A stretch of 64,000 nucleotides of DNA from Pirellulales bacterium (GTDB taxonomy: Bacteria > Planctomycetota > Planctomycetia > Pirellulales > Thermoguttaceae): the NCBI GenBank assembly GCA_016931995.1, contig JAFGDS010000142.1:62001-126000 (forward strand). The letters are read 5' to 3'. The translations under genes were made by a program, and so were the position numbers. Below, piece after piece: positions 38,473 through 42,513 of this stretch (positions are counted from its first letter, which is position 1; the number at the start of each line of letters is the position of its first letter). The notes below the pieces were generated by a model. The model was not told where the DNA came from. It saw nothing but the letters and a program-made list of their open reading frames with translations, and made no database searches.

Positions 38473-39075
38473 GTGCCTCGCCGCCGCGCCTTGACGTTGC
38501 TCGAGGTCCTCCTCGTGCTGTGCCTTATGGTGATTCTCGGGGCCATCGCCTGGCCCGTGCTCGATCGCCCTTGGGCCGAGCAACGTCTGCGCAAGTCCGC
38601 CGACGTCGTGCGCCTGGCGTGGGCCCGGGCGAGAGTGGACGCCATGACGACCGGCAAGACCTACGTCTTCCGCTACGAGCCGCAAACGAGCCAGTTCGTC
38701 GTCGAGGCGTGGCAAGGCGCCGAGGCCGACGCCGAGTCGCGGCCCGGCGAGTGGTTCGGCCAGGCCTCAACGGACGCGGCCGAGCCCGGCCTTTTCTCCG
38801 CCGTGACGCAGAACCTTCCGGAAGGCGTTCAATTCGCGATCGGCCAGAGCCAGCTCGACCAGCGGGCGGCGTTCGTGCTCTCGACGTTCACGGATGAAGC
38901 GGCCCAGCAGGGCGTTTGGTCGGACCCCGTGCTCTTCTATCCGGACGGCACCGCCACGAGCGCCGACGTGCGCCTGGTGAACGAGCACGGCCGCCGGATC
39001 GACCTGTCCCTGCGCGGGCTGACCGGCGTGGTGACCGTTGGCGAGACCGGCTCGCTGGAGGAGGTCGTCCCATGA
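38473..39075 (+). CDS. gspH: Minor pseudopilin, GspH-like
   Basis: 200 residues from the GTG at 38473, five bases after gspG. A short leader (MPRRRA) is followed by LTLLEVLLVLCLMVILGAIA with the +5 Glu. The rest fits the GspH/FimT beta fold: RLRKSADVVRLAWARARVDA then MTTGKTYVFRYEP. Its leader is normal, in contrast to the next three genes. Its stop overlaps the gspI start by ATGA. Confidence 0.8.
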   Translation: MPRRRALTLLEVLLVLCLMVILGAIAWPVLDRPWAEQRLRKSADVVRLAWARARVDAMTTGKTYVFRYEPQTSQFVVEAWQGAEADAESRPGEWFGQASTDAAEPGLFSAVTQNLPEGVQFAIGQSQLDQRAAFVLSTFTDEAAQQGVWSDPVLFYPDGTATSADVRLVNEHGRRIDLSLRGLTGVVTVGETGSLEEVVP

Positions 39076-39578
39076 GCTGGTTCTCGCCGAAACACTCCCC
39101 TCTCCCGCTTGCGGGAGAGGGTAACGGAACGCGGCACGGCTTCTCTTTGCTCGAGGTCATCCTCGCCCTGGCCATCTTGACCGGGGCGATCGCCGTGTTG
39201 GGCGAGTTGGCGCGCGTGGCGCTGGATAGCGCGCGGCGGGCACGCGATACGACCTACGCGCAGCTCCTGTGCCGGAGCAAGATGGCCGAGATCACCTCCG
39301 GGGCGTACCATCCCGAGGCGGTCAGCCGCGTGCCGCTGGGCACCTCGACCGATCCAGGCTGGTCCGACTGGCTCTACTCGATCGAGTTGGCCCCCACGGA
39401 CCAGGACGGCTTGATCGTCGTCCGCGTCACCGTGGAAGAGAACCTCCCGCCCGAGAAGCGGCCCGTCCGCTACAGCCTCACGCAATGGATGATCGACCCG
39501 GACTACGAATTCACGCAAGCGGAGGGGGAAACGGAGGAGACAACGCAGAAGAAGACCTCGCGGGAGGAGGAGTCGTGA
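39072..39578 (+). CDS. gspI: Minor pseudopilin with a repeat-derived leader
   Basis: 168 residues. FSLLEVILALAILTGAIAVL is the pseudopilin helix, cut after Gly23. The 23-residue leader contains SPLPLAGEG, which is the translation of a dispersed hairpin (perfect arms 39098-39108 and 39111-39121). The body has SARRARDTTYAQLLCRSKMA as in GspI. The C-terminal region is acidic (GETEETTQKKTSREEES). Starts and stops overlap on both sides, so the frame is surely real. Confidence 0.85.
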   Translation: MSWFSPKHSPLPLAGEGNGTRHGFSLLEVILALAILTGAIAVLGELARVALDSARRARDTTYAQLLCRSKMAEITSGAYHPEAVSRVPLGTSTDPGWSDWLYSIELAPTDQDGLIVVRVTVEENLPPEKRPVRYSLTQWMIDPDYEFTQAEGETEETTQKKTSREEES

Positions 39579-40750: not shown

Positions 40751-40803
40751 CCGTCCGGCGGCAATCAACAACCCGGCGGACAACAGCAGCCGGGCGGTCG
40801 ATC

Positions 40804-42513
40804 ATGAACCATTCACGACGCAATCCATCTCGATCCGCCCCCGCGGCCCAATCCTCCCCTCTCCCTTTGGGAGAGGGGTCGGGGGTGAGGGCAACGCCAC
40901 GCATCATCATCAGTGAGCCAGGCCAGACCTTTCCCCAAAGGGAGAGGGGACAGGCTTGCACTGCTGGACAAGCCAGCAGTGGCACCCTGGACCACCCCCC
41001 AAGGCGCGGCGTGGTCATCGTCGTCGTGCTGGTGATCATCGCGCTATTGACCCTGGTGGCGATGACGTTCTGCGAGCTGATGCTGGCCGAACGCGAGGCG
41101 TCGGAACTGGCGGCCACGCGTGTGCAGGCCGAGTCGCTGGCCGCCTCGGGCGCGGAGGCCGCCAGGTGTTTTCTCGCGCTTACGTCGCAGGAGCAAACCG
41201 ATCTGGGCGGATGGTACGACAACCAGACGCGGTTCCGCGGCGTCGTCGTGGTCGACGATCCGCAGCCGGAATACCGAGGCCGTTTCGCCCTGGTCGCCCC
41301 GGCCATGGAGGACGGCTACCGTCGCGGGATCCGCTTCGGCCTGGAGGACGAATCCACGCGGCTGAATCTCAACGCCCTGATCGCCGCCGAGCAGCGCACC
41401 CCCGGGGCGGGCCGCACGCTGCTGATGGCCCTGCCCGGCATGACCGAAACGATCGCCGACTCGATCCTCGACTGGATCGACGCCGACGACGAGCCCCGCG
41501 AGTTCGGCGCCGAAGTGGAATACTACTCGGCGCTCGAGCCACCCTACGCGCCCAAGAACGGCCCGCTGGCCACGGTGGAGGAGCTGCTCTTGGTGCGCGA
41601 CGTCACGCCGCAGCTTCTTTTCGGCGTGGACGCCAACCATAACGGCTACCGCGACGCCCACGAGCCGGATCCCATGTCGATCGAAAACGTGGACAACGCC
41701 GACGGCTCGATGGACTGCGGCTGGGCCGCGTTTTTGACGCTGGCGAGCATGGAACGCAACGTCCGGCCCGACGGCGCGCCGCGGATCGACCTGAATCAGG
41801 ACGATCTGGAAACGCTCTACGAGGAGCTCGAGACGGCGTTCGACGCCCGCTGGGCCACGTTCATCGTCGCCTACCGGCAAAACGGCCCCTACTCGGGCAC
41901 GCAGGCCGGCGCGATCGCCGCGCCCGCCGGCCAGCTCGATTTCTCGCAGCAGGGGCGGATCAAGCTGACGACCGTGCTCGACCTGGTCGGCGCGCGGACG
42001 CAGGTGAAGTTCCAGGGCCAGAACGAAGCCACGGTGCTCGAAACGCCGTTCCCCAACGTGCCGGGCTTGATCAACGTGTATCTGCCCGTCCTGCTCGATT
42101 ACGCCACGGTGAACCCCTCGCCCACGATCCCCGGCCGGATCAACATCAACCAGGCGTCGCGGACCGTGCTCGCGGGCATCCCCGGCATGACGCAAGAGCT
42201 CGTCGACGAGATCGTCGCCTACCGGGCATCCAATCCGATCGACGCGGATCCGTACCGCCGCCACGAAACCTGGATCCTCGGCGACGGAATCGTCGATCTC
42301 GACCAGATGAAAGCCTTCATGCCCTACGTCTGCGCCGGCGGGGCCGTCTACCGCGCCCAGGCGATCGGCTATTTCGACCAGTCCGGCCCGTCCTGCCGCA
42401 TCGAAGTCATCCTGGACGCCACCCAAACGCCCGCCAAGGTCCTCTTCTGGCGCGATCAAAGCCACCTCGGCCGGGGGTACGCGCGGGAGACGCTGGGGAT
42501 CGAAGGCTTTTGA
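40804..42513 (+). CDS. gspK: Type II secretion minor pseudopilin with repeat-derived leader
   Basis: 569 residues from the ATG at 40804. The hydrophobic helix GVVIVVVLVIIALLTLVAMT comes after about 68 residues. That leader includes SPLPLGEGSGVRA and CTAGQASSGTL, translations of two different dispersed repeats (40856-40955 and 40959-40987). The body contains helix-hairpin-helix-like elements of GspK: RININQASRTVLAGIPGMTQ and TLLMALPGMTETIADSILDW. It caps the pseudopilus with GspI and GspJ. Last gene of the set; secretin, GspL and GspM genes are not adjacent. Confidence 0.88.
   Translation: MNHSRRNPSRSAPAAQSSPLPLGEGSGVRATPRIIISEPGQTFPQRERGQACTAGQASSGTLDHPPRRGVVIVVVLVIIALLTLVAMTFCELMLAEREASELAATRVQAESLAASGAEAARCFLALTSQEQTDLGGWYDNQTRFRGVVVVDDPQPEYRGRFALVAPAMEDGYRRGIRFGLEDESTRLNLNALIAAEQRTPGAGRTLLMALPGMTETIADSILDWIDADDEPREFGAEVEYYSALEPPYAPKNGPLATVEELLLVRDVTPQLLFGVDANHNGYRDAHEPDPMSIENVDNADGSMDCGWAAFLTLASMERNVRPDGAPRIDLNQDDLETLYEELETAFDARWATFIVAYRQNGPYSGTQAGAIAAPAGQLDFSQQGRIKLTTVLDLVGARTQVKFQGQNEATVLETPFPNVPGLINVYLPVLLDYATVNPSPTIPGRININQASRTVLAGIPGMTQELVDEIVAYRASNPIDADPYRRHETWILGDGIVDLDQMKAFMPYVCAGGAVYRAQAIGYFDQSGPSCRIEVILDATQTPAKVLFWRDQSHLGRGYARETLGIEGF
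40856..40987. repeat. Two repeat families inside the gspK leader
   Basis: CCCTCTCCCTTTGGGAGAGG (near 40857) pairs with its inverted relative CCCCAAAGGGAGAGGGGA near 40935, and a CACTGCTGGACAAGCCAGCA copy follows at 40960. The whole block is in frame. Confidence 0.85.

Follow-up and report, generated by a model that had tools for sequence, protein, structure and literature searches.

The window analyzed here, a stretch of 64,000 nucleotides from the genome of a Pirellulales bacterium, carries the type II secretion genes E, F, G, H, I, J and K consecutively at positions 34549–42513. Pfam identifies gspE, gspF, gspG, gspJ and gspK, with GspJ's own family marginally below the cut-off. The product of gspH has no Pfam family match and that of gspI matches N_methyl alone, below its cut-off; the identity of both genes rests on gene order and on profiles built in this analysis. 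The class III motif has Gly at position −1 in GspG, GspI and GspJ and Ala in GspH, and Glu is present in all four. Class III prepilins carry Gly or Ala at −1 and next a hydrophobic stretch, in most cases with Glu at +5. GspK has Gly at −1 and no Glu, and absence of the Glu is usual for GspK. Peptidase_A24 has four matches in the genome, three of them above the cut-off, at three places.

Counted through the Gly at −1, the leaders encoded by gspI, gspJ and gspK comprise 23, 87 and 69 residues, at most one residue off the 23, 86 and 68 of the initial annotation, which had described in-frame repeats within them. Its short leaders for gspG and gspH were confirmed as well (14 and 6 residues). The three long leaders are in frame and built largely from dispersed palindromes (Table 1). 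The initial annotation had counted three independent repeat families in three genes, a count that we correct: R2 is common to gspI and gspK, R1 occurs in gspJ, and R3 in gspK.

Table 1. Positions of genes, leaders and repeats of the type II secretion locus in the window.
Feature	Position	Strand	Remarks
Inverted repeat, 26 nt	37887–37958	.	between gspF and gspG start, upstream of gspG
gspG	38022–38468	+	leader 14 residues, repeat-free
gspH	38473–39075	+	leader 6 residues, Ala-terminated; assigned by position and profile
gspI	39072–39578	+	ATG overlapping gspH stop (ATGA)
gspI leader	39072–39140	+	23 codons
R2 palindrome, gspI leader	39098–39121 (C46:101098-101121)	+	encodes part of SPLPLAGEG
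gspJ	39575–40750	+	GTG overlapping gspI stop (GTGA)
gspJ leader	39575–39835	+	87 codons
Six-copy R1 palindrome array, gspJ leader	39611–39809	+	three per orientation, one copy diverged
gspJ–gspK junction	40748–40807	+	gspJ TAA 40748–40750; same-frame TGA 40805–40807 18 codons later, overlapping gspK ATG
gspK	40804–42513	+	ATG start at 40804
gspK leader	40804–41010	+	69 codons
R2 palindrome, gspK leader	40857–40877 (C46:102857-102877)	+	from genome-wide R2 pattern search
Inverted second R2-like arm, gspK leader	40934–40950	+	inverted pair
R3 palindrome, gspK leader	40958–40984	+	encodes part of CTAGQASSGT

The genes overlap by start and stop codons at the H–I and I–J junctions. At the J–K junction, we take the gspJ-frame TGA over the gspK ATG as a relic of an earlier ATGA overlap, a history that we infer; the early gspJ stop at 40748–40750 may be recent or stem from a faulty assembly. 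Directly 3′ of gspK, at 42568–42648 of the window, lies an inverted repeat of 32 nt, 94% complementary, around a loop of 17 nt. Rfam searches at gathering scores across the window returned two tRNAs and otherwise no match.

The repeats in the leaders belong to families that are abundant in the genome. R1, CCACTGGCNNNGCCAGTG, has 27 strand matches in the window (at most two mismatches) versus 0.12 expected in shuffles, and 790 and 770 strand matches genome-wide (5.43 Mb, at most one mismatch) versus 7 and 5 for a reversed control. The first R2 pattern, its spacer fixed at 5 nt, fitted poorly, with four window matches versus 0.72 expected; with a spacer of 2–8 nt, 118 sites were found genome-wide versus none in the control. 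R3 has five matches in the window (0.00 expected) and 80 + 80 genome-wide with at most two mismatches, versus none. In 484 kb of own-genome sequence, 82 of 95 R1–R4 copies lie outside called genes, a count in which at least five copies sit in the gspJ and gspK leaders of the window, clipped by our home-made simple gene caller. As short palindromes in many copies, chiefly intergenic, the elements resemble REPs; visual inspection of the first 40 R1 contexts showed no GTAG or CGTC tag. R1 is found within about 1.5 kb of four of the seven Y1_Tnp matches, and its density is 16 copies in the 19.5 kb around these matches versus 68 in 484 kb; R2 and R3 are near none of the seven. This distribution would be consistent with mobilization of R1 by a RAYT-like transposase. 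Elsewhere, a long ORF that resembles a DNA methyltransferase by eye (L191, 10442–12670, minus strand) holds three in-frame R1 copies near its C-terminal part and another repeat-like insert, and the gspJ gene of a second operon (G000:C97; L002, 293–1489, minus strand) has ARGTVPIFAPAKMGLSP in its mature part, apparently another in-frame repeat.

The available start codons bear on whether the leaders are translated. In gspI, none of ATG, GTG, TTG and CTG occurs in frame between the start and the cleavage site, and a gspI start downstream of the repeat was rejected. In gspJ, a later in-frame GTG is available at 39800, 12 codons from the cleavage site, so the long leader is not obligatory. The last ATG, GTG or TTG of the gspK leader is the GTG at 40885, between the first R2 and the second R2 arm, with R3 farther downstream, and a CTG at 40987 lies downstream of R3. 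Evidence against the initial annotation, namely initiation behind the repeats, was thus not found in gspI; a later start is possible in gspJ via GTG and in gspK via CTG.

The same genome has another operon, C97, not linked to the first, and repeats recur in its pseudopilin leaders. Its gspI leader contains two diverged R1-like copies, its gspH has an R3-like pair directly before the cleavage site, with the nearest ATG, GTG or TTG 57 codons away, and its gspK has repeats upstream of the cleavage site. In relatives, leaders were compared with their own genomes, with 40 candidates scored for each; the gspK leaders of G032 and G007 and the gspJ leader of G012 gave 60, 102 and 46 matches, numbers that include the query and both strands. 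These leaders, and one from Syntrophales, were picked for their repetitive look. In the Syntrophales gspK (L151), nucleotides 7–131 of the 162-nt leader were searched against three genomes and gave 45, 22 and 25 matches, again with the query and both strands counted, and the nearest ATG, GTG or TTG is 42 codons upstream. The repeat families differ between genomes. Long leaders are not the rule elsewhere: among the gspJ genes L143–L179, 21 of 23 have leaders of at most 30 residues by eye. The more distant gspK genes were also compared by eye, the site being misplaced in some (L153, L165).

As a general test of translation, mature GspK was searched in 119 genomes of the family, 92 of which had a match; their names include Pirellulales bacterium, Thermogutta sp. 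and Blastopirellula marina. Forty fetched regions and the two own-genome operons yielded 136 scored junctions; at 103 of these the following gene is gspI, gspJ or gspK (H–I, I–J, J–K). At L113, gspH and gspI have no motif, and loci with no recognized neighbor gene (e.g., L114–L116, L102, L120, L121) contribute no junction. Among ATGA junctions of I, J and K, the frame is open and in register with the class III site in 56 of 58. Where the stop-to-site gap is at least 60 nt, the count is 39 of 41 (p = 9e-17 versus the one third expected if untranslated), a statistic in which relatives are non-independent and from which genes that abandoned the overlapping start may have dropped out. Long GTGA junctions gave 7 of 12 (p = 0.07), a weak result. 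Across all 76 long gaps before I, J and K, the coding frame is open in 59 and the other two frames in 28 and 26; the remaining 17 gaps are closed in frame and therefore need a later start. Judged from these frames, read-through of the leader across relatives would be common, not universal. The nearest ATG, GTG or TTG lies 20 or more codons upstream at 39 of the 103 junctions, and leaders as short as 4 to 10 residues occur in some orthologues. For the gspJ leader of G012 and the gspK leader of G007, one frame of the six is open, and it is the coding frame.

The leaders diverge faster than the mature parts. Five pairs from three genera were compared, three of them drawn from a set of three genomes. 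Gene by gene, identity over the first 90 mature residues is 82–97%, versus 11–83% for the leaders, which are often of unequal length. The pN/pS ratio in the five pairs is 0.54–0.79 for leaders versus 0.12–0.25 for mature parts; pN in the leaders is lowered because the leader alignment was built on residues. Repeat family, length and position are not conserved in the leaders of same-genus orthologues. In the comparison of orthologous leaders called for in the initial annotation, where shared leaders would have pointed to an ancient and conserved function, same-genus orthologues had no common leaders, and an old conserved leader was rejected.

We also assessed how specific the repeats are to class III leaders. 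By BLAST against an own-genome sample, repeats occur between the nearest start and the site at 12 of 61 class III sites, three of which (C116:12607, C136:26572, C131:15285) are weak, with two or three short matches each; C150:17759 was scored positive, and its leader exceeds the tested stretch. By the same measure, 10 of 19 clustered sites are positive versus 2 of 42 solitary ones (Fisher p = 5e-5), where a site counts as clustered if a further class III gene lies no more than 3 kb away on its strand; the 19/42 split was made by hand. Repeats are present somewhere in the upstream 300 nt at 36 of the 61 sites, and the mature parts have matches at 15 of the 61, some of them likely paralogues. 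The home-made caller gave 47 stop-overlapping genes in 898 kb, a sample in which the class III loci of the window, L048, L041 and L046 were deliberately included. Dispersed repeats were scored in the leader for class III genes, with 4 of 6 positive, and within the first 100 codons for the others, with 4 of 41 positive (p = 0.005); C97 gspK was moved to class III by hand, the automatic expression giving 3 of 5 and 5 of 42. An earlier, smaller set of coupled genes had a repeat in 2 of 26, namely gspI and gspJ. In three of the four positives outside class III, the repeat occupies the N-terminal tail ahead of a hydrophobic segment, with a Sec-signal-like appearance by eye in two; in the fourth it lies in an apparent loop of an rfbD-like enzyme. 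On the reverse strand of L219, near 699 and 13011, two coupled genes have R2-like repeats ahead of Sec-like signal sequences.

We propose that the leaders of gspI, gspJ and gspK are a translated spacer with a pinned start and an expendable, cleaved sequence, in which repeats persist if they are in frame; we put the probability of this reading at about 0.75. The translation start would be pinned by a start codon that overlaps, or once overlapped, the preceding stop, and the class III site would pin the N-terminal boundary of the mature protein. The sequence between them should hardly matter because prepilin peptidase removes the leader, and palindromes spreading in the genome could persist there as long as the frame is kept and free of stops. 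The scheme presumes translational coupling and cleavage of the long forms. A filter on repeats, in a permissive interval behind a pinned start, suffices. Against this reading stand the 17 long gaps closed in frame, the weak GTGA result, the later GTG of gspJ and CTG of gspK, the repeats near the N terminus in 4 of 41 coupled genes outside class III, and repeats within mature proteins.

The repeats could instead form an untranslated spacer, a chance open frame then preceding a true start near the cleavage site, as would fit gspJ with its GTG at 39800 and gspK with a start at the CTG at 40987. The upstream start is unusable in 17 of the 76 long junctions of relatives, and di Nocera and others, in the account given in PMC3733652, judged most REPs at the 5′ ends of ORFs in three species to be untranslated. 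Nevertheless, we regard this explanation as unlikely for the set as a whole, given that gspI has no later start even if CTG is allowed, that 39 of the 41 long ATGA junctions are open and in frame, and that the G012 gspJ and G007 gspK leaders are open in the coding frame alone. It is about equally improbable that leaders are preferred targets of insertion, through their sequence or operon transcription. Several families in neighboring genes and the recurrence in many genomes speak for targeting; against it, the families vary from genome to genome, and only 2 of the 42 solitary class III genes carry repeats, while 36 of the 61 sites have some within 300 nt upstream. The rarity of positive solitary genes, combined with these upstream repeats, fits spacer-like accumulation. 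The suggestion of the initial annotation that leaders tolerate insertions is upheld by in-frame repeats of the C97 operon and by relatives with other families, but its idea of a preferred landing site is a conjecture: 82 of 95 copies lie outside called genes, at least five of these in clipped leaders of the window, and 40 of 42 solitary class III genes have no repeat between the nearest start and the site. Lastly, the repeats could work in the mRNA as hairpins that adjust stability or translation from one gene of the operon to the next, translation of the repeats themselves being a side effect. The palindromes do lie within a transcribed operon, and the opposed R1 copies in gspJ are able to pair; set against the lack of conserved family, length or position in same-genus orthologues, and leaders of just 4 to 10 residues in some, this is the least probable of the explanations and a long shot.

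The translated-spacer reading has precedents in part. As described in PMC10191384, prepilin leaders are cytoplasmic, end in Gly or Ala, vary in length and are cut by prepilin peptidase, and they are very long in Streptococcus sanguinis pilins; in the leaders analyzed here, by contrast with that account, the length is due to dispersed repeats and differs between close relatives. Rickettsia palindromic elements are presented in PMC10969869 as dispersed and lying in frame within genes that probably still function, but they measure ~150 bp, have a conserved peptide and lie in unrelated genes, within the mature protein. Here, several families of short palindromes occupy a peptide predicted to be cleaved, and the likeness, drawn from description, is one of behavior, namely in-frame insertion. 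REPs inside genes are reported in PMC3733652 as palindromes of 20–40 bp, often in dimers or groups, with a share at the NH2 termini of ORFs and with Planctomycetes among the carriers; according to that account they are GTAG- or CGTC-tagged, and many NH2-terminal ones were judged untranslated. The repeats studied here differ in sitting in a prepilin leader and in that the frame test and the absent later start favor their translation. Among known cases, intragenic REPs and the Rickettsia elements come closest; new in the present one are the kind of protein, the location in a part that is cut off, the multitude of families and the test by reading frame. A literature search at the level of titles and abstracts returned no paper on repeats in prepilin leaders.

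At somewhat less than even odds, the proposal might extend further: N-terminal tails that precede a membrane-entry helix and are expendable, chiefly class III leaders but also Sec n-regions, would be a general translated spacer in repeat-rich bacteria, recurrently absorbing mobile repeats in separate phyla wherever a start–stop overlap pins the start, and forming a natural library of random leaders filtered for frame and export. The translated-spacer reading marks a protein site at which selfish repeats would be translated at low cost. The frame of overlapping starts provides a sequence test that separates translated from untranslated N-terminal repeats, and the leaders are natural variants for probing the length and oddity that prepilin leaders tolerate. 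Gene callers may misplace the starts of pseudopilin genes in repeat-rich genomes. Another prepilin-like gene (L041; G000:C150:17759) has a leader of ~102 residues with two kinds of repeat and no later ATG, GTG or TTG before the site.
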